Below, one piece after another: positions 24,073-36,491 of a stretch of 36,491 nucleotides of DNA; the stretch's first letter is position 1; each line of letters opens with the position of its first letter. Source of the DNA: Desulfobacteraceae bacterium. Its GTDB lineage: Bacteria > Desulfobacterota > Desulfobacteria > Desulfobacterales > Desulfosalsimonadaceae. Under the pieces are notes generated by a model, which saw only the letters and a program-made list of their open reading frames with translations, searched no databases and had not been told where the DNA came from. A program made the position numbers and the translations under genes. The stretch covers positions 1 to 36,491 of the forward strand of contig QZKW01000002.1 in NCBI GenBank assembly GCA_003599885.1. Reading direction: 5' to 3'.

Positions 24073-24798
24073 ATGCAAAACATCTTATACCCCAAAAAAA
24101 TTCTCCGGTTTTTACATTACATGACGATGCTGCTATCCATTTTTTTACTATTCGGTTGCCAATCCACATCTTCACAAAAAATTCTATCCCCCCCTGCTCT
24201 CAAGCCGGAATCCGAAATCCGTCTAACACCGGGCGATACGATTGCAATTAAATTCCCGTATACCACTCAGCTGAATGATATCAATGAAACCCATACCATC
24301 CTCCCTGACGGAACCATCACCATGGCCCTGGTGGGACAGGTGCTGGCTGCAGGAAAAACACCGGCGGAACTCCAGAACGAATTGGTCAAACGCCATGCCG
24401 GTCAACTGCAAAATCCGGTTATCACCGTTTCCGTCACTTCTTTGTTCGAGCGCAAAGTATACGTGGGGGGTGAGGTTATCAGACCGGGCCTGGTTACATT
24501 ACCGGGGCAAATGTCGGTAATGGAGGCCATTTTTCAGGCCGGAGGATTTAATCTGGACAAAGCGGAGACAGGAAATGTGGTGCTCATCCGCCAGCAGGGC
24601 AATCAGCGGGTGGCTTATGCGCTTGATTTCAAACAAGCCCTCCAGGGAGACACGCACGAACCCGTTTACCTGCAGCCGCAAGACATCATCTATGTCCCCA
24701 GGACGACTATCGTGAATGTTGATCTCTGGGTCAAGCAGCATATTTATGATTTACTTCCACCCGTTACTTTTGGCTATCGCCTTGACTCAAGCGATTAG
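24073..24798 (+). CDS. Polysaccharide export lipoprotein, Wza-like
   Basis: A 241-residue exported lipoprotein with lipobox LLFGC (cysteine near 29). The poly-export domain spans about 50-130 (LTPGDTIAIKFPYTTQLN, ILPDGTITMALVGQV, ITVSVTSLFERKVYV), followed by one SLBB domain (GEVIRPGLVTLPGQMSVMEAI). It would form or gate the outer-membrane channel for the polymer made by this cluster. It is shorter than E. coli Wza, which has more SLBB repeats and a C-terminal helix. It is the first gene of the operon, 14 bp before the Wzz-like gene. Confidence 0.92.
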   Translation: MQNILYPKKILRFLHYMTMLLSIFLLFGCQSTSSQKILSPPALKPESEIRLTPGDTIAIKFPYTTQLNDINETHTILPDGTITMALVGQVLAAGKTPAELQNELVKRHAGQLQNPVITVSVTSLFERKVYVGGEVIRPGLVTLPGQMSVMEAIFQAGGFNLDKAETGNVVLIRQQGNQRVAYALDFKQALQGDTHEPVYLQPQDIIYVPRTTIVNVDLWVKQHIYDLLPPVTFGYRLDSSD

Positions 24799-24812
24799 AT
24801 CGGAGACATATT

Positions 24813-26237
24813 ATGCAAACTCTAAACGATCCGTTTATCCATCAACCCACCATGAGGGATTTTTTTCTTGTGCTGTTCAAGCACAAATTCAAGATTATTT
24901 TTTTCTTTTTGGCGGTAATGGGATTCGCAATCACCGGTAGCCTTTTGTCCCAAAAAATTTATCAATCGGAAGCCAAACTCTTCATTAATCTTGGCCGGGA
25001 AACTGTGACTCAAGATTCCGACGCCACCCCAAAGCAGAGCATACAAGTAAGTCAGACACTGGAAAATCAGATCAATTCGGAAATCGAGATCCTGACCAGC
25101 CAGGAACTCGCGCAAAAGGTGGTGGCGGCTATCGGTGCGGATGCGTTTCGGGAAGGATCGCCAAAATATTCATCCTTTGAGAATCCTCTTATCGGCACAC
25201 TTCGACTAAAAATCAACAATCTGCTTGAATTTCCGAAAAATGCAGTGGCGCATCTTTTAAAACCAGCCGCCATTCCCCCGGCAGACACAAATCCAACCGA
25301 AAACGATGTAATCGCCGGACTGCTCACTCAAGAGTTGAAAGCCGAGGTTGTGAAAAACAGCAGCATCATCAAACTCCATTATGAATCACATGACCCCTAT
25401 CTTGCCCGGGACGTTCTGGACCAACTTATTAATTTATATATGGATAAACACATAAAACTTTTGGGATCCGAGGGGACTTACGATTTTTTCAAAAAAGAAA
25501 GCGAGAGACTCCTTCAACAACTAAAAGCAACTGAAATAAAACTGGCGGACTTAAAAAACGCAGCAGATTCCGAACTTTCATCTTCCACATCGATGGAACT
25601 GCAGAAAAGCCTCTATGATCTCAAACAAAAAGAGGTGGAACACCTTTCCACCTTCAATGAAAACAGCATCGTGGAATTGCAAAGAAGTCTTTATAACCTC
25701 AAACAAAAAGAACAGGAACTTCTCTCCACTTTCACCGAAAACAGCATCCCGGTAAAAGACATCCGACGACAGATAGCCATCGCTGAAATTAATCTTCAAA
25801 ATCACCAGACCCAACTGCAAAACAGCATCCCGGTACAAGACATCCGACGACAGATAGCCATAGTTGAGAGCAGCCTCCAGAACCGCCAAAACAGTACGTT
25901 AACGCTTCAAATTTCCCAACTGGAAAGAGAAAAAGAAATTATCGAGGAAAACTACCGAAAATATGCCGCATCTATGGAACAAACACGCATTAATCAAGCA
26001 CTTGAAGAAGAAAAAATATCCAACATCCGGGTCGCTCAGACACCCACGGTTCAGGTGGAACCGGTCCGGCCGAACATCGGATTGATACTCTTCATGGGAT
26101 TATTTTTAGCCGTTTTCGGATCTCTGGGTCTGGCCTTTTTTATGGAATATATGGATAACAGCCTGGAGCGACCAGAACAGATCGAAGGGATGCTTCATTT
26201 GCCGATTTTGGGCTCCATTCAAAAAATGGTAAAATAA
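24813..26237 (+). CDS. Chain-length determinant / polysaccharide co-polymerase, Wzz-GumC-like
   Basis: A 474-residue inner-membrane protein. A first membrane segment near 30-50 (IIFFFLAVMGFAITGSLL) and a second near 424-446 (IGLILFMGLFLAVFGSLGLAFF) flank a large periplasmic region. The Wzz signature PTVQVEPVRPN precedes the second segment. The middle is coiled coil with repeated units (about residues 262-350, see repeat entry). It controls polymer length and contacts the Wza-like channel. No C-terminal kinase domain; a separate CpsD-like gene lies two genes on. GGAG precedes ATG 24813. Confidence 0.92.
   Translation: MQTLNDPFIHQPTMRDFFLVLFKHKFKIIFFFLAVMGFAITGSLLSQKIYQSEAKLFINLGRETVTQDSDATPKQSIQVSQTLENQINSEIEILTSQELAQKVVAAIGADAFREGSPKYSSFENPLIGTLRLKINNLLEFPKNAVAHLLKPAAIPPADTNPTENDVIAGLLTQELKAEVVKNSSIIKLHYESHDPYLARDVLDQLINLYMDKHIKLLGSEGTYDFFKKESERLLQQLKATEIKLADLKNAADSELSSSTSMELQKSLYDLKQKEVEHLSTFNENSIVELQRSLYNLKQKEQELLSTFTENSIPVKDIRRQIAIAEINLQNHQTQLQNSIPVQDIRRQIAIVESSLQNRQNSTLTLQISQLEREKEIIEENYRKYAASMEQTRINQALEEEKISNIRVAQTPTVQVEPVRPNIGLILFMGLFLAVFGSLGLAFFMEYMDNSLERPEQIEGMLHLPILGSIQKMVK
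25596..25861 (+). repeat. Tandem internal duplications in the co-polymerase gene
   Basis: Two adjacent 78-bp copies (26 codons) run 25596-25673 and 25674-25751, encoding LQKSLYDLKQKE and LQRSLYNLKQKE types. Then a second unit appears: 41 bp at 25740-25780 recur at 25821-25861 with one mismatch, period 81 bp (27 codons), encoding NSIPVKDIRRQIAI and NSIPVQDIRRQIAI. All copies keep the frame. This lengthens the periplasmic coiled coil. Confidence 0.85.
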
Positions 26238-26241
26238 CGCC

Positions 26242-27828
26242 ATGTACCAGAACTTTTACAATTTTATACAAAAACCCTTTGACGTCACGCCGGACCCGAG
26301 ATTCCTTTACATGAGCCGCAACCATTCGGAAACACTGGCTGCCCTTATATACGGCATTCGGGAAAGAAGAGGGTTTATCACCATTATCGGTGAAGTGGGT
26401 ACCGGCAAAACAACGCTTCTCAATGCCACTCTCGAAAAACTCGATGATCAGACAGCCTCCGCATTCATTTTTAACACGGATGTCACCTTTGAAGAATTGC
26501 TGCAAATGGCCCTTATTGACTTTGGTCTGGCCACCGCCGAAGAGTCGCTTCCCAAATTTGTGGCCCTGGACCGGTTGAACCGTTTTGCAACCGCACAATT
26601 CGCTGCCGGTAAGAATATCGTCATTATTATTGATGAGGCTCAGAACCTTGATCTGCAAACCATGGAGAATTTAAGACTTCTCTCCAACCTGGAAACACCC
26701 AGATACAAGCTGGTCCAGATTATTCTCTCCGGCCAGCCGGAACTTGATGAAAAACTGCGGCGGCCGGAAATGCGCCAGCTCTCTCAACGGATCAATCTCA
26801 GGCGCTATATCACGCCGCTGGACAAGAAAGACACATTCAACTACATCCGGCATCATTTGAAAATCGCAGGATGTGCGGACATCAATTTCTTTGACAAATC
26901 ATCCCTGGAAATAATCTGGACGTATTCCGGCGGTGTGCCCCGGAAAATCAACATTCTTTGCGACAACACCCTGCTCATCGGATACGGGCTGGGAAGAAAA
27001 AAAATCACCCGTTCTGAAACTCAGGAAGCGATCCGGGACCTGAGCTGGAGTCCTTTCTTACACACTGCGGCAAAGCCCGATGAAGTCAAACAGATAAAAG
27101 AAAAACAAACAGCACGATTTTTGATACCGCGCGTTGCGGTTGCAACTGCTGGCCTATCACTGGCCCTGATTCTGGGCGCCATGGGGGCTGCTTTATGGGA
27201 TTCAGGATCAGAAAAACTGGAATCCATTCCCGCATTTTCTAAGCATCTCTGGGCAACCGATTCCGGTCCACCCTCACCAGGAACAACACCTCAGCCGGAG
27301 AACATGCAATCAGATATCCAAAACCTGAATTCCCAGGAGACTTCCTCAAAACCCAAACCACAGGCGCCCCGCTTAACCCCGGAAAATCTGCCCCCTGCGA
27401 TGACACCCGTGAATCAGAGTAGTGAAATACACCCTCCGGATTCAGCAGCGATTCCGCAAGATGCAAATCACGAAGTTGAAACTCAGAAGGCCGTGCAGAC
27501 GGCAACCCGTAAACGATCAGTTGAGAATCCTGCCCCCACATTAAAGGTGGAAGCAAGCGAACCGGATATCGCGGAATCATTTAATCAGGTTGTGGTTAAA
27601 AAAGGCGACACCCTTTCCTGGATCATTAAAGAGTCCTACAAGGATTCCGAAGAAATGCTGCCGCTGGTTCTTCAGGCAAATACTCAGATACAAAATCCGG
27701 ACCTGATTCTACCGGGATGGGTCATCCGCCTTCCGAAACATGTCCCCACGGGAAAACTTGCCGGGCGCATGACAGAGAATAACCAGTCCATAAAATGGAA
27801 AATTACCACTCCATCCACAGAACAATAA
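26242..27828 (+). CDS. ExeA-like AAA ATPase with membrane anchor and LysM
   Basis: A 528-residue protein. Residues 1-270 are an ExeA/general-secretion-type AAA+ ATPase: KPFDVTPDPRFLYMS, Walker A GEVGTGKTT (50-58), Walker B IVIIIDEAQNL with D131/E132, and ILSGQPELDEKLR. A membrane segment near 293-315 is followed by a proline-rich linker and a C-terminal LysM domain (about 448-495, VVVKKGDTLSWIIKE, then LILPGWVIRLP). The N-terminal part is cytoplasmic and the LysM periplasmic, binding peptidoglycan. ExeA-like ATPases occur in many exopolysaccharide loci. It may couple energy to the export machine. Confidence 0.9.
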   Translation: MYQNFYNFIQKPFDVTPDPRFLYMSRNHSETLAALIYGIRERRGFITIIGEVGTGKTTLLNATLEKLDDQTASAFIFNTDVTFEELLQMALIDFGLATAEESLPKFVALDRLNRFATAQFAAGKNIVIIIDEAQNLDLQTMENLRLLSNLETPRYKLVQIILSGQPELDEKLRRPEMRQLSQRINLRRYITPLDKKDTFNYIRHHLKIAGCADINFFDKSSLEIIWTYSGGVPRKINILCDNTLLIGYGLGRKKITRSETQEAIRDLSWSPFLHTAAKPDEVKQIKEKQTARFLIPRVAVATAGLSLALILGAMGAALWDSGSEKLESIPAFSKHLWATDSGPPSPGTTPQPENMQSDIQNLNSQETSSKPKPQAPRLTPENLPPAMTPVNQSSEIHPPDSAAIPQDANHEVETQKAVQTATRKRSVENPAPTLKVEASEPDIAESFNQVVVKKGDTLSWIIKESYKDSEEMLPLVLQANTQIQNPDLILPGWVIRLPKHVPTGKLAGRMTENNQSIKWKITTPSTEQ

Positions 27829-27841
27829 AAGGATTCACGCT

Positions 27842-28603
27842 ATGGGTAAAACACACCAGGCACTTCAAAGAGCGGAGCAAGAATATCAGGAACGGATTAT
27901 TACATCCCGTTCCGGACCTGACATCAACGTCAGGCACATGCTGCCCAAAAAACCGTCAATGCCGCGACAGACAACGAACGATCAATATCTGGCCCAGTAC
28001 GAATTTTTAAAAAGCAATCTGCTCAGCCGATATCCGAGCAACAAATTAACGTCACTGGCATTCACCAGCGCTTCCCTGGGCGACGGCACAACGACAACAG
28101 CTGTCAACTTCGCCACGGCAATGGCAAAGGATTCTCTGCGCTCTGTATTGCTTGTGGACGCGAACTTCAGACACCCATGCCTGCATGACATGTTTCATAT
28201 CGAGCTTACAAATGGTTTATCCGATTTTCTTGCGAGGGAGAATGGCATGGAGCCTCAATTTACCATGATTGAAAAAAATCTGCATATTCAAACAGCTGGG
28301 AGCCTTGGCTTAAGGGCTGCCGGGCTGTTCGAATCGCCTCAATTCGATCGTTTTATTGAAACAGCATGCAGCCGTTTCGATCATGTAATCCTGGACTGTC
28401 CGCCAGTAGCAGCGTTTTCCGAAACACGGGTAATTGCCGGAAAAGTCGGTGGCGTCATCATGGTGGTCAACGCCGGGAAAACCCGTCAGAAAGTCGCTCT
28501 TCGCACGAAAAACGACTTAATAGAGGCCGGGGCTGAAATACTGGGTACGGTTCTCAACCGGAGAAAATTTCACATACCTTATTGGGTGTATAAACGGCTC
28601 TAA
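27842..28603 (+). CDS. CpsD/CapB-family ATPase, P-loop lysine missing
   Basis: A 253-residue cytoplasmic protein homologous to bacterial tyrosine kinases of the CpsD/Wzc type. Walker A' SVLLVDANFRHP (101-112) and Walker B VILDCPPVAAF (about 182-192) are intact. The P-loop reads SLGDGTTTTAV (79-89), with threonine 83 in place of the invariant lysine, so ATP hydrolysis is doubtful. The C-terminus has only two tyrosines (IPYWVYKRL), not the usual tyrosine cluster. It may be a regulatory or scaffold partner of the Wzz-like protein. AAGGA precedes ATG 27842. Confidence 0.88.
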   Translation: MGKTHQALQRAEQEYQERIITSRSGPDINVRHMLPKKPSMPRQTTNDQYLAQYEFLKSNLLSRYPSNKLTSLAFTSASLGDGTTTTAVNFATAMAKDSLRSVLLVDANFRHPCLHDMFHIELTNGLSDFLARENGMEPQFTMIEKNLHIQTAGSLGLRAAGLFESPQFDRFIETACSRFDHVILDCPPVAAFSETRVIAGKVGGVIMVVNAGKTRQKVALRTKNDLIEAGAEILGTVLNRRKFHIPYWVYKRL

Positions 28604-28672: not shown

Positions 28673-29782
28673 ATGAAATTTTCAGCATTCACCACTCGGA
28701 TCCTCAGAAAAAAAATTCTTCAGTCCATTAATTCAGAACAGGTATTTCAACGCATCCTGGAAAGAGAGAGGGGACGATCAGAACGCAATGGCGGATCTTT
28801 TTCGCTGCTCGACATAACCTTCTCCACACCTATTTACGATCCTGTTCTTCTTACATTAATCCATGCCCTTAAAGATCGGATTCGGTCAACCGATGCTCTG
28901 GGGTGGTTAAGCGAGGATCATATCGGTGTAATCATGCCCGACACGGCATTGGAAGGGGCTGCCGAATTTGGCCGGGATATAAAAAACAACCTGCTGCCAA
29001 AAAACGCTTTTTTTGATTTCAACATCTACACATATCCTGAAAACAGCCCGTCCCTTGTTCACAATAAATTACATACGGCATCATCAGACAAACTCCCCGA
29101 ACCGAATGCTCTCTCACGATTTACCTGCAAACCGATTCCCCTTTGGAAAAGATCCCTGGATATTATCGGCGCAACGTTGGCGCTGATTCTGCTATGCCCT
29201 GTATTTTTAATTGTCGCTATCTTTATAAAATCCGTATCTCCAGGGCCGGTTTTTTTTAAACAGGAAAGGATCGGTTATACGTGCAAACCATTTATGTGCT
29301 GGAAATTCCGGACCATGACCTGCGATACCGACCCTGAAAAACACAAAGCCCATGTATGCCGTTTGATCCAGAATAAGGAGTCCTGGCAGAAACTGGATGA
29401 CCAGCCGGATTCCGGCGTCATTCCTTTTGGCAACATATTGCGCAAATCCGGTTTAGATGAATTGCCCCAGCTATTTAACGTGATTCGCGGAGAAATGAGC
29501 CTGATCGGCCCCCGTCCCTGCATTGCGTATGAAGCCAGGCAGTTCTGCTTATGGCAGCAAAGACGGTTTGATACGCATCCGGGTTTGACCGGGTTGTGGC
29601 AGGTGAGTGGAAAAAACAGGACCACATTTGAAGAAATGATGCGCCTGGATATTCATTATGGTCAGAAAAGATCGTTTATACGGGACACCATTATCTTTTT
29701 CAAAACGTTTCCCGCAATCATCAAACAGATCACTGAAAAAGTTGACGCAAAAAGGATAAGCGATGAAAAATCAATCAATTAA
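28673..29782 (+). CDS. Initiating sugar transferase with degenerate GGDEF-like N-terminal domain
   Basis: A 369-residue protein. Residues 20-145 resemble a degenerate GGDEF domain (FSLLDITFS, RIRSTDALGWLSEDHIGVIMPDT), lacking the GGDEF loop. A single membrane segment near 160-188 leads into the phosphoglycosyl transferase core: SPGPVFFKQERIGY, FMCWKFRTM, GLDELPQLFNVIRGEMSLIGPRP and HPGLTGLWQVSGKN. The DE pair in LDELPQ is catalytic. It transfers a sugar-1-phosphate to undecaprenyl phosphate to start the repeat unit. GGGGGAG precedes ATG 28673. Confidence 0.92.
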   Translation: MKFSAFTTRILRKKILQSINSEQVFQRILERERGRSERNGGSFSLLDITFSTPIYDPVLLTLIHALKDRIRSTDALGWLSEDHIGVIMPDTALEGAAEFGRDIKNNLLPKNAFFDFNIYTYPENSPSLVHNKLHTASSDKLPEPNALSRFTCKPIPLWKRSLDIIGATLALILLCPVFLIVAIFIKSVSPGPVFFKQERIGYTCKPFMCWKFRTMTCDTDPEKHKAHVCRLIQNKESWQKLDDQPDSGVIPFGNILRKSGLDELPQLFNVIRGEMSLIGPRPCIAYEARQFCLWQQRRFDTHPGLTGLWQVSGKNRTTFEEMMRLDIHYGQKRSFIRDTIIFFKTFPAIIKQITEKVDAKRISDEKSIN

Positions 29783-30854
29783 TGTAGGGGTTGTCGGGTG
29801 CGGATACTGGGGCCCCAACCTGATTCGGAATTTCTGGGCGCTTCCGGACTCATCGGTAAAAACAGCCTGCGATAGCGATCCGGTAAGACTGGATCATATG
29901 AAAAAGCTCTATCCATTGGAGACAACTTCTGATTTTGAGCAAATCATTGATGATCCGGATATCCATGCCGTCGCCATCGCCACACCGGTTTCCTCCCATT
30001 ATGACTTGGCCCAAAAAAGCCTGATGGCCGGTAAGCATACGTTTATTGAAAAGCCCATGACCCGGACCGTTGAACAGGGCCATGAATTGATTGAATTGGC
30101 AGCCCGCAAAAACCTGGTGCTGATGGTGGGGCATACGTTTATTTACTCCACTCCGGTCCGGAAAATCAAAGAGATCGTTGAATCCGGAGATATTGGCGAC
30201 ATTCTGTACATCAGCGCCCAGCGCTTGAACCTCGGCCTGTTCCAGAAAGATATCAATGTGGCCTGGGATCTGGCGCCGCACGATATCTCCATTATTCTCT
30301 ACATCATGGGCATGTCACCTGTCTCCGTCAATTGTCAGGGGAAAAATCACTTTAACGGGTCAAAAATTGAAGACGTGACGAATATGTCTCTGAATTTCCC
30401 CAACGGCGGATTCGCCACCATATTGAGCAGCTGGCTGGATCCCAATAAAATCCGGCGGATGACATTTGTGGGCAGTAAAAAAATGATTTTATATGATGAT
30501 AATAAGCCTCTTGAAAAAATCAAAATCTACGACAAGCATGTCGAAGTCCCCGAATATTATGACACATTTGGTGAATTCAGCTATTCCTATCATTATGGCG
30601 ACGTGCAGTCTCCGTATTTAAAACAGGAAGAGCCGCTTAAGGTTGAATGTCAGCATTTTATCGATTGCATTAAATTCAACAGGAAACCCGAATCTTCCGG
30701 AGAAGAAGGGCTCAAGGTGGTTCAGATTTTAGAAGCAGCCGCCCGCTCTATCTCAAAAAACGGCCTTAAAATGCCAATCGGCAACCTGATCACAGGAGGA
30801 GATAAGGTATTTCCCATGACTGAAGATTCTCAGGCTCGCAGATACATGTCATGA
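29763..30854 (+). CDS. Gfo/Idh/MocA oxidoreductase, WbpB/WlbA-like
   Basis: A 363-residue NAD-dependent sugar oxidoreductase. The Rossmann motif GVVGCGYWGPNL (8-19) is followed by AIATPVSSH, the family EKPMTRTVEQG motif (lysine near 98), and the active-site WDLAPHDIS. It probably oxidises the 3-hydroxyl of a UDP-sugar acid, as WbpB does for UDP-GlcNAcA. The gene overlaps the sugar transferase by 20 bp and ends in ATGA overlap with the next gene. Confidence 0.9.
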   Translation: MKNQSINVGVVGCGYWGPNLIRNFWALPDSSVKTACDSDPVRLDHMKKLYPLETTSDFEQIIDDPDIHAVAIATPVSSHYDLAQKSLMAGKHTFIEKPMTRTVEQGHELIELAARKNLVLMVGHTFIYSTPVRKIKEIVESGDIGDILYISAQRLNLGLFQKDINVAWDLAPHDISIILYIMGMSPVSVNCQGKNHFNGSKIEDVTNMSLNFPNGGFATILSSWLDPNKIRRMTFVGSKKMILYDDNKPLEKIKIYDKHVEVPEYYDTFGEFSYSYHYGDVQSPYLKQEEPLKVECQHFIDCIKFNRKPESSGEEGLKVVQILEAAARSISKNGLKMPIGNLITGGDKVFPMTEDSQARRYMS

Positions 30855-31333
30855 AAGCATCCCATCCAACCCAAAATATTGCTCCGGATGTCACTATGGG
30901 AAAAAACGTGCAAATATATGATTTTGTGAATCTTTATGGCTGCGAAATCGGTGATGGCTCCCGAATTGGGGCATTTGTTGAGATTCAGAAAAAAGCCAGG
31001 ATCGGTAAAAACTGTAAGATTTCCAGCCACACCTTTATATGCGAGGGTGTGACCATAGAAGACAACGTGTTTGTGGGTCATAACGTGACGTTCATTAATG
31101 ATCTCTATCCGAAAGCCGTTAACAGCGACGGCCAACTGCAATCTGATGGAGACTGGAACTGTGTGCCCACAACCGTCAAAAAAGGCGCGTCCATCGGTTC
31201 CGGCGCGACCCTGTTATGCGGAATAACAGTGGGGCAAAACGCCATCATCGGCGCAGGAAGCGTGGTCACAAAAGATGTACCGCCGGATACCACTGTCGCC
31301 GGCAACCCGGCAAAGATGCTCAGAAAGCGATAA
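30851..31333 (+). CDS. Hexapeptide-repeat N-acetyltransferase, WbpD/WlbB-like
   Basis: A 160-residue left-handed beta-helix acyltransferase with repeated isoleucine-rich hexapeptides (MGKNVQIYDFVNLYGCEIGDGSRIGAFVEI, shown in part; TIEDNVFVGHNVTF; GASIGSGATLLCGITV; AIIGAGSVVTKDVP). The C-terminal AGNPAKMLRKR is typical. The catalytic asparagine/histidine region is GHNVTFIND. It would acetylate the 3-amino group made by the aminotransferase downstream. Its start overlaps the oxidoreductase stop. Confidence 0.92.
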   Translation: MKASHPTQNIAPDVTMGKNVQIYDFVNLYGCEIGDGSRIGAFVEIQKKARIGKNCKISSHTFICEGVTIEDNVFVGHNVTFINDLYPKAVNSDGQLQSDGDWNCVPTTVKKGASIGSGATLLCGITVGQNAIIGAGSVVTKDVPPDTTVAGNPAKMLRKR

Positions 31334-31381
31334 CCAGCGTTTTCAGGATCGACCAACTCAAAAAAGGAGTTCTATGACGCC

Positions 31382-32512
31382 ATGGAAATCCCGTTTCTGG
31401 ATTTAAACGCGCAATACGTTTCTATCAAAAATGACATTCACAAGGCTATTGATGACGTTTTAAACAGTTGTGCATTTGCCGGCGGGCCGTTTGTGGAATC
31501 ATTTGAAACCGAATTTGCCTCGTTTTGCGGATGCAGCGAAGCCATCGGCGTCGGCAACGGCACAGATGCCCTGTGGCTGTCCTTGCTGGCATTAGGCGTC
31601 GGCCCGGGTCACGAAGTGATCACCGTGCCGAACACATTTATCGCTACTGCCGAAGCCATCAGCTTTTGCGGGGCGACGCCCGTGTTCGTGGATGTTGAAG
31701 CGTCAACCTATACCATCAATCCGGAATTGCTCGAAAATGCCATCACTTCAAAGACCAGGGCCATCATTCCCGTTCATCTGAACGGACAGATGGCGGACAT
31801 GGACCCCATTATGGAGATCGCTCATAAACATGGTCTTTTTGTGGTGGAAGACGCCTGCCAGGCCCATGGCGCGGAATACAAAGGCAAAAGAGCAGGGGCT
31901 ATCGGCAATACCGGATGTTTCAGTTTTTATCCGGGAAAAAATCTCGGCGCTTATGGGGAAGCCGGGGCCATTGTCACCAATGATGCTGATTTAGCAAAAA
32001 AAATCCGGGTTTTAAGGGACCACGGACAGGAGAAAAAATACCACCACTCGGTCATCGGCTGGAATGCCCGTATGGATGGTCTTCAGGGCGCCATCCTCAG
32101 CGTTAAATTAAAACATCTTCCCAAGTGGAACACCTTGCGCAGGCAACATGCCCGGACATATAGCGAACGGCTCGGCGACATCGACCAGGTCATTCTCCCG
32201 TTGGAAGCCGAAAACAGAAAACATGTTTTTCACATTTACGCAATCAGAACAAAGCATCGCGACACGCTGATGGAATATTTGAAAATAAATGGCATCCAAT
32301 GCGGCGTCCACTACCCGGTGCCCATTCACAAACAAGAGGCATACAGCTTTAATGGATATCAAAATAAACAGTACCCTGTGGCAGAAACCGTAGCGTCCGA
32401 ACTCGTCTCTCTGCCAATGTATCCTGAATTGACCGGTTCGATGATTGAAACCGTTTGTGCGGAAATTAAATCATGGTGCAACTGTGGAAAAATTAAAAAT
32501 CATGAAAAATAA
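31382..32512 (+). CDS. DegT/DnrJ/EryC1/StrS aminotransferase, WbpE/WlbC-like
   Basis: A 376-residue PLP enzyme. MEIPFLDLNAQYVSIK at the start, GNGTDALWLSLLALG, VVEDACQAHGAEYKGK and the PLP lysine segment SFYPGKNLGAYGEAG are characteristic. It transfers an amino group to the 3-keto sugar produced by the WbpB-like enzyme. With the acetyltransferase this makes a 3-acetamido sugar acid. AAAGGAG lies twelve bases upstream of ATG 31382; a 10-codon frame begins at the nearer ATG 31374. Confidence 0.93.
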   Translation: MEIPFLDLNAQYVSIKNDIHKAIDDVLNSCAFAGGPFVESFETEFASFCGCSEAIGVGNGTDALWLSLLALGVGPGHEVITVPNTFIATAEAISFCGATPVFVDVEASTYTINPELLENAITSKTRAIIPVHLNGQMADMDPIMEIAHKHGLFVVEDACQAHGAEYKGKRAGAIGNTGCFSFYPGKNLGAYGEAGAIVTNDADLAKKIRVLRDHGQEKKYHHSVIGWNARMDGLQGAILSVKLKHLPKWNTLRRQHARTYSERLGDIDQVILPLEAENRKHVFHIYAIRTKHRDTLMEYLKINGIQCGVHYPVPIHKQEAYSFNGYQNKQYPVAETVASELVSLPMYPELTGSMIETVCAEIKSWCNCGKIKNHEK

Positions 32513-33449
32513 ACGGATGGATTCCGGCCTGCCGCCGTCTCTTATAAAGGCATTTTATACCGTCAAGCCGATGGTTCCCCGGGATCTGCAATTATTCGCC
32601 AGAAGACAACTTGCAAGAGTTCAGAAGCACCAGCAAACTTCCACCTGGCCTATATTCCCGGGATCGGAAACTCTTCCACCGGGATGGAAGGGGTGGAAAG
32701 ACAACAAGCAATTTGCCTTGATCCTTACCCATGACGTGGACACCCTAAAGGGCTGGGAACACATAAAGGATCTGATGAACATAGATCGAGTTATGGGCTT
32801 CCGGTCTTCTTTTAATATCGTGCCGGAAAGATACCCGATCGAGATTGAAAGATTATGGGATATTAAAAATCAAGGATTTGAACTCGGCGTTCATGGGCTT
32901 AATCATGACGGGAAACTGATTCAATCGGAAATCGTTTTCTTAAAACGCGCCAAAAAAATTAATGAATACATCTGCGAGTGGGACGCTTGCGGTTTTCGAG
33001 CCCCCTCCATGCACTGCGACCTGGAACTTTTTAAGTGCCTGAAAATCGCCTACGATGCATCCACATTTGATACCGATCCTTTTGAGCCGAAATCCCACGG
33101 TGTGCATACGATTTTTCCATTTGCGGTTTTTAATGAGGCAAACCATATCTGTTACTGGGAACTTCCCTATACCCTGCCTCAGGACAGCACACTTTTTATT
33201 ATTCTTCAGGAAAGAACCATCGATATCTGGAAACAAAAACTGGACTGGATCGCCCAAAACGGCGGCATGGCTCTCCTGAACACCCATCCGGATTATATGG
33301 ATTTCGATGGCGACCACGGTGAGAATGAAGATTATCCGGCAAAACTCTATATCGATTTTTTAAATTATGTAACGGCCAAATACTGTGGCCAGTTTTGGAA
33401 CCCGCTACCCAAAGATCTGGTCCAATTTTTAAATGAAACATATGCCTGA
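32502..33449 (+). CDS. NodB-type polysaccharide deacetylase family protein
   Basis: A 315-residue protein of the CE4/NodB superfamily. The metal-binding start is ALILTHDVDTLKGW; the second site LGVHGLNHDGKL supplies histidines, and GFRAPSMHCD carries the arginine motif. LLNTHPDYMD near the end is the last histidine motif. It would remove N-acetyl groups from the polymer or a lipid-linked precursor. The long frame opens at 32445; ATG 32502 overlaps the aminotransferase by 11 bp and is preferred. No signal peptide is visible, so it may act in the cytoplasm. Confidence 0.87.
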   Translation: MKNKRMDSGLPPSLIKAFYTVKPMVPRDLQLFARRQLARVQKHQQTSTWPIFPGSETLPPGWKGWKDNKQFALILTHDVDTLKGWEHIKDLMNIDRVMGFRSSFNIVPERYPIEIERLWDIKNQGFELGVHGLNHDGKLIQSEIVFLKRAKKINEYICEWDACGFRAPSMHCDLELFKCLKIAYDASTFDTDPFEPKSHGVHTIFPFAVFNEANHICYWELPYTLPQDSTLFIILQERTIDIWKQKLDWIAQNGGMALLNTHPDYMDFDGDHGENEDYPAKLYIDFLNYVTAKYCGQFWNPLPKDLVQFLNETYA

Positions 33450-34512
33450 TATGATAAAAATTTTTTCCATTGAAAATGAAACACAAATGAAAGAATGGGA
33501 CCAGTTTGTGCTGTCATTTCCTCGCAGTACACCGTTTCATATGTCATATTGGCTGAAATGCATTCAAAAAACATATCATTACAATCCGTTACTGTATGTA
33601 TCCATAAATCAGACAAACGGTCACTCAAAACATATTGACGGGATATTCCCCTGTTTTCATATCAAAAGCATGATCACCGGCAACCGGCTGGTCTCCATAC
33701 CTTTTTCCGATTATGGAGGTCCCCTCTTTTTTGAAAAACACAAAGAAAATTTATTATTATCCGAACTGATAAAGAATTTTAACGGAAGTTGTAAGTATTG
33801 TGAAATCAGGTCGAATTTGGAAAACGGCACCAGTTTTTTGCCTCATCACAATTTCAAACTGCACTCTCTTGAACTCAATTCTCAACCGGAGCTGGTAAAG
33901 CGCAAATTCAATAAACGAACGACGCTATACTCCATTCGAAAAGCAGAAAACGAGGGCGTTGCCATAAAGGAAGAAAATTCAATACAAGGCATTGAAATTT
34001 TTTATAATTTAAATGCCATTACTCGAAAAAAACACGGATTGCCACCCCAGCCCTTTGCGTTTATGAAAAATATTTATAGTCATCTGATTGCAAAACAACA
34101 TGCTTCAATTCTTCTTGCGATCCATGATTCCAGAGTAATAAGCGCCGGAATATTTATTAAATTCAGGGATACGGTTTATTACAAATACAATGCTTCCGAC
34201 CCTGCTTTCCTGTCCCAGAAAAAGCCGAATCATCTGCTGGCATGGCATGCAATCCAGGAAGCCTGCCAGAAAGGATTTCAATATTTTGATTTTGGCCGGA
34301 CAGCCGTTAATAACCAGAGTCTGGCAAAATACAAAGAAATGTGGGGGGCTAAACCAATTGACCTGCCCTACCATTTCTATCCTGCTGTTCAAGGGTTAAC
34401 ATCGGCGGACGAAAACAAATTCTCTTATCGGATGTTCAACCATTTATGCAAGAACTTACCTGATTCCGTTTTAAAAAAAGTTGGCGCAGTGTTGTACAAG
34501 CACATCGGATAA
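33433..34512 (+). CDS. FemAB/GNAT-like acyltransferase
   Basis: A 359-residue protein with two GNAT-like halves, as in FemAB and BioF2-like (Acetyltransf_6) proteins. FHMSYWLKCIQKTYHY, IPFSDYGGPLFF, KFNKRTTLYSIRKAENEGV and PNHLLAWHAIQEACQKGFQYFDFGRTAVNN are typical. Family members transfer aminoacyl or acyl groups to cell-wall or polysaccharide amines, which fits a polymer deacetylated by the preceding gene. Alternative starts at 33442 and 33451 exist; 33433 overlaps the deacetylase by 17 bp. Lower GC than the biosynthetic genes upstream. Confidence 0.85.
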   Translation: MKHMPDMIKIFSIENETQMKEWDQFVLSFPRSTPFHMSYWLKCIQKTYHYNPLLYVSINQTNGHSKHIDGIFPCFHIKSMITGNRLVSIPFSDYGGPLFFEKHKENLLLSELIKNFNGSCKYCEIRSNLENGTSFLPHHNFKLHSLELNSQPELVKRKFNKRTTLYSIRKAENEGVAIKEENSIQGIEIFYNLNAITRKKHGLPPQPFAFMKNIYSHLIAKQHASILLAIHDSRVISAGIFIKFRDTVYYKYNASDPAFLSQKKPNHLLAWHAIQEACQKGFQYFDFGRTAVNNQSLAKYKEMWGAKPIDLPYHFYPAVQGLTSADENKFSYRMFNHLCKNLPDSVLKKVGAVLYKHIG

Positions 34513-34533: not shown

Positions 34534-34908
34534 ATGCTTTGGTTCAATACTGAAAAAAAAGCAATGACAGCTCAATTTAAAATTGGCGATGTGGTGACGG
34601 TCCGATCACAATCAGAAATTACGCTTACCCTGAATGATAACAACAGGCATGAAGGCTGCCTGTTCATGAAGCAGATGTGGGGCTATTGCGGTAAATCATT
34701 TTCTATTCTGAAAGTGGTCCGCAATCTTTTTGATGAAAAACGCTGCCGGATGCACCTCGCAACCATCCCGGTATATATTCTTGATGGCGTCATCTGCAAT
34801 GGAGAGGTGCCTTCATTTGAGTATCCATGCGACCATAGCTGTTATTTTTTGTGGCATCAGGACTGGCTTCTGCAAACATCACTTTCCACGAACAAGGAGC
34901 AGAAATAA
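34534..34908 (+). CDS. Cysteine-rich small protein, paralogue A
   Basis: A 124-residue soluble protein of unknown family, homologous to the next gene. Core residues: GDVVTVRS (18-25), EGCLF with C42, M48, YCG with C52, ILK (58-60), D67, RM (72-73), ILDGVICNG with C88, CDHSC (C99, C103) and FLWHQDWL (105-112). Five cysteines and H108 are shared with its neighbour, so metal binding is likely. An AAAGG site lies upstream of ATG 34534. Its stop codon overlaps the next start (TAATG). Function unknown; it sits within the exopolysaccharide operon. Confidence 0.8.
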   Translation: MLWFNTEKKAMTAQFKIGDVVTVRSQSEITLTLNDNNRHEGCLFMKQMWGYCGKSFSILKVVRNLFDEKRCRMHLATIPVYILDGVICNGEVPSFEYPCDHSCYFLWHQDWLLQTSLSTNKEQK

Positions 34909-35405
34909 TGGAATGTCAGCTGATAACCATGTGCGACATTCAGCAGCGGAATTCCCGGTTAAACGATCTGATCCAATTGCGCATCAACCTGGTATGGAAC
35001 ACAAAAAAAAAACTGGGATTTCTGAAAAATAAACTGAGGCGGCCAGGAAGCAAAATTATAGAGCCGACTGAATCAGAAGTCCTTCAAACAACGCAACTAT
35101 TGCCGGGGGACATCGTTCGGGTCCGCGCCAAAGATGAAATTCAGAGCATTTTAGACGAGCGGGGAGCAACCAACGGGTGCACGTTTACCCCCGAGATGTA
35201 TGCCCGCTGCGGCGAAACCTATAAAATACTTAAAGAAATCCATTATTTTTATGATGAAGTCAAAAATCGGATGTGCAAGTGCAGGGATATGGTGATTCTG
35301 GAAGGGGCACTATGCAGTGGCAGGCGAAGGATGTTTTCAGACGATTGCGACCGTTGCTGTTTCCAGTTCTGGCATAAACGCTGGCTGGAAAAATTAGAAC
35401 CATAG
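34908..35405 (+). CDS. Cysteine-rich small protein, paralogue B
   Basis: A 165-residue protein whose last 100 residues align with paralogue A at a constant offset of 49, then 48: GDIVRVRA (67-74), NGCTF with C91, M97, RCG with C101, ILK (107-109), D116, RM (121-122), ILEGALCSG with C136, CDRCC (C147, C151) and FQFWHKRWL (152-160). An extra N-terminal basic helix of about 50 residues is unique. GGAG eight bases before ATG 34908 sets the start; a longer frame opens at 34851 inside paralogue A. Tandem duplication with divergence is evident; function unknown. Confidence 0.82.
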   Translation: MECQLITMCDIQQRNSRLNDLIQLRINLVWNTKKKLGFLKNKLRRPGSKIIEPTESEVLQTTQLLPGDIVRVRAKDEIQSILDERGATNGCTFTPEMYARCGETYKILKEIHYFYDEVKNRMCKCRDMVILEGALCSGRRRMFSDDCDRCCFQFWHKRWLEKLEP

Positions 35406-35473: not shown

Positions 35474-36403
35474 ATGTCAAAAATCAGCATATTCGGACTT
35501 GGATATGTCGGCTGCGTCAGTATCGGATGTCTGGCCTCAAACGGGCATCAGGTGACTGGTGTTGATTTAAACCAGACCAAAGTCGATTTCATCAACATGG
35601 GGAAATCGACCATTGTGGAACAGGGAATCGACCGGCTGATATCCGAACAGCATGGTCGCAAAAATATTTCAGCGACTACCCAAGCCATTCAGGCCGTGAT
35701 CGATACGGATGTTTCATTTATTTGCGTAGGAACCCCCTCTTCTAATAATGGACATCTCAACTTGCAATCCATTTATAATGTGGCCGATGAAATCGGGAAA
35801 GGGATCAGAGAAAAAGACGGTTTTCATGTGGTTGTGATCAGGTCCACCGTGATACCGGGAACCAATGCCAAAGTTACCGGGATTGTCGAAGCATCATCCG
35901 GGAAAAAAAACCACGCCGGATTTGCTGTGGTTTCAAATCCCGAGTTTCTAAGAGAAGGCAGCGCAGTTAATGATTATTACCATCCGCCCTATACCCTCAT
36001 CGGTTCTGACGACAACCAAGCCATTGCAATAATGAAAGATGTTTATGAAGGAATCGATGCACCCATAATTATAACAGAAATTGAAATCGCCGAACTGCTC
36101 AAATACGTGAACAATGCCTTTCACGCGTTAAAAATAGCCTTTGCCAATGAAATCGGAAATATATGCTGCAAATTGGGTATTAACGGCCACAAGCTCATGG
36201 ATATTTTCTGCGCTGACAAAAAATTAAACATCTCTCCCTGTTACCTGAAACCGGGTTTTTCGTATGGCGGCTCGTGTCTGCCCAAAGATCTCAAAGCGAT
36301 TAAAACCATTGCCCATGATTTTTATCTGGAATGCCCGGTAATTGAGAATATTGAAAAAAGCAATGAACTGCAAAAGCGCATTGTTTACGAAAAAATTTTG
36401 TAA
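35474..36403 (+). CDS. GDP-mannose 6-dehydrogenase (AlgD-type), C-terminally truncated
   Basis: A 309-residue nucleotide-sugar dehydrogenase closest to AlgD, which oxidises GDP-mannose to GDP-mannuronate. The Rossmann start ISIFGLGYVGCVSIGCL, VSFICVGTPS, VVVIRSTVIPGT, NPEFLREGSAV, then FANEIGNICCK, and the catalytic GGSCLPKD with cysteine 268, as in AlgD. Full-length enzymes are about 430 residues; here the UDPG/MGDP-dehydrogenase C-terminal domain is missing and no frame after the stop restores it. GAGG precedes ATG 35474. UDP-sugar use, to feed the WbpB-like enzyme, is also possible. Confidence 0.85.
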   Translation: MSKISIFGLGYVGCVSIGCLASNGHQVTGVDLNQTKVDFINMGKSTIVEQGIDRLISEQHGRKNISATTQAIQAVIDTDVSFICVGTPSSNNGHLNLQSIYNVADEIGKGIREKDGFHVVVIRSTVIPGTNAKVTGIVEASSGKKNHAGFAVVSNPEFLREGSAVNDYYHPPYTLIGSDDNQAIAIMKDVYEGIDAPIIITEIEIAELLKYVNNAFHALKIAFANEIGNICCKLGINGHKLMDIFCADKKLNISPCYLKPGFSYGGSCLPKDLKAIKTIAHDFYLECPVIENIEKSNELQKRIVYEKIL

Positions 36404-36491
36404 CTGTTCAGTAAAAAAAATCAATTTTTTAAAAAAAGTTCTTGACATAGTTTTTTGTTAAATTTTGAAAAACAGGAAGACGTTCAGCATC
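36404..36491 (+). other. AT-rich tail after the truncated dehydrogenase
   Basis: The 88 bases after the stop are strikingly A/T-rich. A perfect TTGACA at 36442-36447 is followed by poor -10 candidates (TTGAAA at 17-bp spacing), so a weak promoter for a gene beyond the window is possible. No homology to the missing dehydrogenase domain is visible in any frame. Confidence 0.35.

Follow-up and report, generated by a model that had tools for sequence, protein, structure and literature searches.

Which task is performed by two short, cysteine-rich genes that overlap at a stop and a start codon and directly follow an acyltransferase gene? The question was raised by genes A and B at 34534-35405 of contig QZKW01000002.1 (assembly GCA_003599885.1, Desulfobacteraceae bacterium); the window, i.e. 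the whole stretch of DNA analysed, comprises positions 1 to 36,491 of that contig. An earlier reading made from the letters of the window (the sequence-only reading) had proposed that the products are paralogues of no named family, perhaps accessory to the deacetylase or acyltransferase upstream. In the present analysis A and B are identified as the split form of a two-domain protein that is a single chain in most of the homologues fetched.

A and B are paralogues with a similarity far beyond chance: BLASTP aligned 101 residues of the two products, with one gap and at 36% identity (E=1e-23). The two frames, the TAATG overlap and the paralogy over about 95 residues claimed earlier were borne out, and the five common cysteines and the GC-x5-M-x3-CG block are present as described. 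From the proposed F-x-W-H-x-x-W-L ending, W-H-x-x-W-L is shared and the F-x part is not, since A reads F-L-W-H and B reads F-Q-F-W-H. A possible alternative frame of B starts with GTG at 34851 and is longer; the ATG at 34908 (M-E-C-Q) is favoured because in four related loci (L014, L019, L032, L034) the B frame begins with M-C-Q when read from its first start codon, and the B-type frames of L006 and L007 read M-Q-C-Q and M-N-C-Q, respectively. The motif AAGGAG was read by eye at 34894-34899, 8 nucleotides ahead of this ATG. The domain is present in the window's own genome in just two copies, A and B themselves.

No match to A or B was obtained in Pfam (E up to 1), NCBIfam or PADLOC, the PHROGs search resulted in one match at chance level, and the sequence set of solved structures gave no significant sequence match. 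The absence of a named family, as stated by the sequence-only reading, was therefore supported by the profile and sequence searches.

The species-level genome collection was scanned with the joined A and B lead sequence, resulting in 429 candidate stretches, 315 of which were confirmed, and the best 80 were kept. The domains were counted over 92 fetched loci (L numbers) with a profile built in this analysis; the window's copies L001 and L002 were excluded. Both domains were detected in one open frame in 81 of the 92 loci, in separate frames in 5 (4 distinct loci), and a single domain was found in 6, a tally biased to fusions because the query was the joined sequence and the hits were ranked by match. 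Several loci are repeated: L004 is the same as L008, L005, L009 and apparently L021 are one locus, and L012 and L013 are near-identical. Among plasmids, 6 records were matched at two places each (12 in total). Frames were read in Bosea, two Mesorhizobium and Nonomuraea, and each contained both domains and a linker between them. The window's pair has both predicted barrels, in adjacent genes.

The basic N-terminal extension of B had been taken as a sign that the copies have split roles. This was not borne out, because the extension matches the linker of the fused homologues, in which a C-Q pair is conserved in at least 90% of the proteins (two alignments, A3 and A4). In the window the C-Q likewise stands at the start of this linker, ahead of the B domain, whereas the short linker of L015 has none. 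The net charge of the linker has a median of +7 over 86 proteins. Taken as a whole, the anatomy of the A-B pair is well supported.

The family is widely spread. The 80 loci were distributed between Actinomycetota (41), Pseudomonadota (8), Planctomycetota (7), Acidobacteriota (4), Myxococcota (3), Ignavibacteriota (3) and Bacteroidota (2), with one locus in each of seven further named phyla and five without a phylum. Fourteen named phyla are represented in all and 3 of the loci are archaeal; many of the 80 are metagenome bins, so that single phylum assignments may be wrong. Among the relatives of the window's genome, which is itself counted, the pair was found in 6 of 297 genomes at the level of the phylum, in 4 of 340 at that of the class and in 3 of 146 at that of the order, and not in the nine other listed genomes of the genus. 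This patchy presence suggests that A-B was gained horizontally. In the window's lineage the twin may have arisen in the form of two coupled genes, or may have been retained in it; the domain tree is compatible with the pairing having arisen more than once.

Each domain is predicted to be an SH3-like barrel with a weak likeness to Mind bomb repeats. The model of the fused homologue L018, with a predicted local distance difference test score (pLDDT) of 89.7 and a predicted template modelling score (pTM) of 0.85, consists of small barrels, and the model of B (pLDDT 83.6, pTM 0.65) shows a small barrel; both models have good overall confidence, which in B is lower in the linker. The first solved-structure match of the fused model was the Mind bomb repeat domain 4tse_A (Foldseek probability 0.99, E 0.032, template modelling score by target 0.38). 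The Pfam family of these repeats, PF18346, was matched weakly by two of six A-B family sequences (best E 0.02), which is not a convincing match. Several observations limit the comparison. None of the three Foldseek searches gave an E-value at or below 0.001, and ribosomal, KOW and nitrile-hydratase barrels scored about as well as Mind bomb. With the model of B alone, no Mind bomb chain was among the 50 matches listed; this model is also weak at residues 141-150 (mean pLDDT 65), where C147 lies.

The five-cysteine pattern was found to be conserved in part. Cysteines matching C52, C88, C99 and C103 were present in 81, 83, 83 and 83 of 83 A domains, and those matching C101, C136, C147 and C151 in 81, 84, 86 and 15 of 87 B domains, respectively. 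Thus, four are near-invariant in A and three in B, whereas the fifth (C42 in A, C91 in B) occurs only in 5 of 83 A and 6 of 87 B domains, all of them in a 12-domain clade together with the window's (support 96). As a separate observation, the cysteine of an H-K-C motif was found in 69 of 83 A domains, the clade-specific extra cysteine in 5 and neither in 9; the two were never together, as if one had replaced the other. According to the strand registers worked out by hand from the predicted secondary structure, C45 stands opposite C79 in L018 (strands 48-60 and 64-78) and C101 opposite C136 in B (strands 104-116 and 121-135), and in both the remaining two cysteines sit just before the next strand. 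Such a register would bring the cysteines together at one end of the barrel, as in a zinc site, and a clustered, metal-type site is plausible on the basis of the conservation and of these models. From the metal-binding or redox fold suggested by the sequence-only reading, the metal part thereby gains plausibility and the redox part has no direct support. Two points count against the favoured reading given below: the fourth cysteine is missing in 72 of the 87 B domains, and the conserved polar residues in A could equally signal an active site.

The latter leads to the alternative that A-B is itself an enzyme, in which the A barrel catalyses a modification step on a glycan or metabolite and B is the regulatory half. 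The catalytic barrel would be the one with the near-invariant cysteines and, in the majority of A domains, the motifs H-K-C-D and R-C-D-G-x-A-H-G-G-C-Q. The polar residues kept in 69-79 of 83 A domains at positions 16, 20, 22, 52, 75, 77, 84, 88 and 96 of the domain would fit such a role, and so would the occurrence of A-B beside non-glycan genes. However, of these positions the window's A retains 16 and 20 alone, and both the histidine and the H-K-C cysteine of the majority are absent from it. The sole recurring enzyme-related fold match among the 50 listed was a weak one with the nitrile hydratase beta subunit, and enzymes are rare among small SH3-like barrels. An enzymatic A-B is considered unlikely.

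Indications of the function, which we infer, came from the neighbouring genes. Pfam families were tallied for proteins encoded within two genes of the target; 43 loci provided 142 listed proteins, of which 136 are covered. The tally excludes neighbours shorter than 120 or longer than 600 residues, the window, L040 and the loci of Actinomycetota. In GC-rich loci the genes were called with a rough script written for this analysis, each cluster was named from one or a few representatives, and in L010 and L070 the target was not called as a gene. The commonest family was Acetyltransf_6 (11 of 136 proteins). In 8 of the 10 split or single loci a FemAB/GNAT gene was at most three genes away, in 6 of these on the same strand. 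It was detected by profile in the window, L014, L019, L032, L034, L094 and L098; in L097 the profile missed it, yet an Acetyltransf_6 gene lies two genes away. The acyltransferase gene of L097 and L098 is on the opposite strand, and L026 and L095 have no FemAB/GNAT within three genes. In the planctomycete locus L017 (2077-4344), A and B are joined to an Acetyltransf_6 domain in one 756-residue frame. The earlier suggestion of a link to the upstream acyltransferase was supported by this fusion and by the recurrent neighbourhood, and the FemAB/GNAT acyltransferase of the window is likely the partner of A-B.

The second commonest neighbour family was Radical_SAM (8 of 136). Together with the conservation of the cysteines, it could point to a redox or thiol switch in place of a metal site; such a switch is highly improbable, as there is no CXXC pair among the conserved cysteines and no thiol-redox family among the 25 commonest neighbour families listed. 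In detail, B12-binding radical SAM genes adjoin the single B-type gene in L094, L097 and L098 and are two genes off in L032, and a radical SAM/SPASM gene adjoins the target in L032 and L018 and directly follows it in L034.

The fused form has a different setting. DUF4910 is encoded directly upstream of it in 32 of 88 loci, and the order DUF4910, target, flippase was determined in 29 of 88 (28 labelled Actinomycetota and one Nonomuraea record). Varying combinations of sugar methyltransferase, nucleotidyltransferase, PIG-L and Wzy-type clusters are also found in these loci. In 36 of 88 loci the target is directly followed, on its own strand, by a gene of the flippase cluster (a cluster identified from one representative). 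This position and the basic linker would suit a scaffold of the flippase or assembly machinery that places Wzx and glycosyltransferases at the membrane, a role which we regard as improbable. The basic linker would also suit an RNA-binding helper that presents aminoacyl-tRNA to a FemAB-type transferase, the more so as FemAB proteins classically use aminoacyl-tRNA and ribosomal and KOW barrels are among the fold matches. Such a helper is distinctly improbable: in comparison with the 11 neighbours matching Acetyltransf_6 just 5 match FemAB, some of them both, the 29 DUF4910-target-flippase loci have no FemAB match, and the ribosomal matches are generic to small barrels.

On the whole, amine-exposing and acylating enzymes recur beside the target: the window encodes a deacetylase-like protein and FemAB/GNAT, the Actinomycetota loci encode PIG-L and DUF4910, and L051 and L062 encode ATP-grasp proteins. 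The proteins of the latter two loci are members of one gene cluster found near the target also in L020 and L033, where the L020 match was under the cut-off and the partial L033 frame gave no match. It is possible that the ATP-grasp proteins are another amide-forming partner. DUF4910 has been proposed to transfer a peptide or glutamine onto an amino sugar by transacylation (PMC4000134), and two modules of MIB1 hold two peptide motifs of one client (PMC11887331). Because of the recurrent amine enzymes, the DUF4910 proposal and the two-module precedent of MIB1, an adaptor for an amide-forming step is the favoured reading. A and B would be the two halves of one functional unit, each an SH3-like barrel stabilised by a cysteine-bound metal, most likely zinc. 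The products of the overlapping genes would assemble with each other and work in the cytoplasm. There the unit may grip a client protein or peptide at two sites, in a layout like that of MIB1's two ligand-binding modules, and thus bring the amide-forming acyltransferase, here the upstream FemAB/GNAT, to its amino-sugar substrate in surface-glycan assembly. That A-B is a cytoplasmic adaptor for the amide-forming decoration of amino-sugar glycans is a tentative proposal.

The neighbourhood also provides points against the adaptor. The FemAB/GNAT profile, built from these loci, matched in 14 of the 88 loci and in none of the other 74. The enrichment is modest, with 12 of 166 genes near the target in comparison with 10 of 406 further off (p=0.014; 44 non-independent loci, window included). 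Several loci have non-glycan neighbours, namely heme oxygenase (L049), a sigma factor (L054) and APS kinase (L036). Accordingly, the placement of the pair inside an exopolysaccharide operon stands for the window, whereas elsewhere the domain pair is also found outside such operons.

The features of the window are collected in Table 1. The genes at 29763-32512 are presumably WbpB/D/E-like, resembling the 2,3-diamino-uronic acid pathway, and their clusters recur in L014, L018 and L094. The nucleotide-sugar dehydrogenase stops at 309 residues and covers positions 2-304 of a 413-position model. The last 91 bases of the window (36401-36491) have identical copies in two other contigs of this genome, in C29 and close to an end of C43, and thus point to a repeated element where the contig breaks off.

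Table 1. Genes A and B and the surrounding operon in the window.
Feature	Position	Strand	Description
Export and chain-length genes and ATPases	24073-28603		
Sugar transferase	28673-29782		
Gfo/Idh dehydrogenase, hexapeptide transferase, DegT aminotransferase	29763-32512	+	Amino-sugar nucleotide set
Polysaccharide-deacetylase-like gene	32445-33449	+	Weak TIGR03006 match (E=1.9e-4), far below cut-off; no Pfam match
FemAB/GNAT acyltransferase	33433-34512	+	Acetyltransf_6 6.8e-16, FemAB 4.7e-9; under the TIGR03019 (XrtA-associated FemAB) cut-off; directly upstream of A
Gene A	34534-34908	+	124 residues; one predicted SH3-like cysteine-rich domain (A half); conserved C52, C88, C99, C103; clade-only C42
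TAATG stop-start overlap of A and B	34906-34910	+	TAA 34906-34908, ATG 34908-34910; read directly in the sequence
Gene B	34908-35405	+	165 residues from ATG 34908; C-Q-bearing basic helical linker, then second predicted SH3-like domain (B half); C101, C136, C147, C151; clade-only C91
Linker-like N-terminal extension of B	34908-35087	+	Begins M-E-C-Q; predicted helices 4-12 and 17-44; basic
Nucleotide-sugar dehydrogenase	35474-36403		Downstream of B

A-B has a fold of a known kind and a proposed role; the family, unnamed in the libraries searched and widely spread, shows a pattern more general than the window alone indicated. It has 315 confirmed stretches and a fixed place in some polysaccharide loci, and no model in the searched copies of Pfam and NCBIfam. 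Once it is named and tied to GNAT/FemAB and DUF4910, a gene that was anonymous becomes a component of bacterial coat decoration that can be tested. It is doubtful, though conceivable, that A and B represent a new family of metal-bearing twin SH3-like barrels acting as a dedicated targeting factor for the amide-forming acyltransferases that decorate amino-sugar glycans. No description of a surface-polysaccharide assembly step served by such a factor was found. Searches by partner names and fold gave no publication on the family, which is nameless, and left the subscription literature mostly uncovered. The family is not described in the available part of the DUF4910 paper (PMC4000134), nor was a mention of it found in that of PMC13390465.

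When compared with known systems, A-B would share the predicted SH3-like barrel and the two modules per protein with the Mind bomb SH3 repeat (PF18346; MZM and REP modules of MIB1) and differs from it in the weak sequence match and in the lack of an E3 ligase context. To our knowledge, neither the cysteine set of A-B nor its W-x3-W-L ending and C-Q linker has a counterpart in Mind bomb. The nitrile hydratase beta subunit and the KOW/L21e ribosomal barrels are likewise small barrels with weak fold matches, but they have no significant sequence match to A-B and another context. DUF4910, a CA_C2195-like metallopeptidase-like protein, resembles A-B in genomic place, although it has an unrelated fold; it has been proposed to act in the synthesis of modified cell-surface carbohydrates (PMC4000134). 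In the FemAB/Acetyltransf_6 proteins (XrtA-associated FemAB, TIGR03019) no similarity to A or B was found, and the window's gene falls under the TIGR03019 cut-off; to A-B they are neighbour, fusion partner in L017 and likely functional partner.
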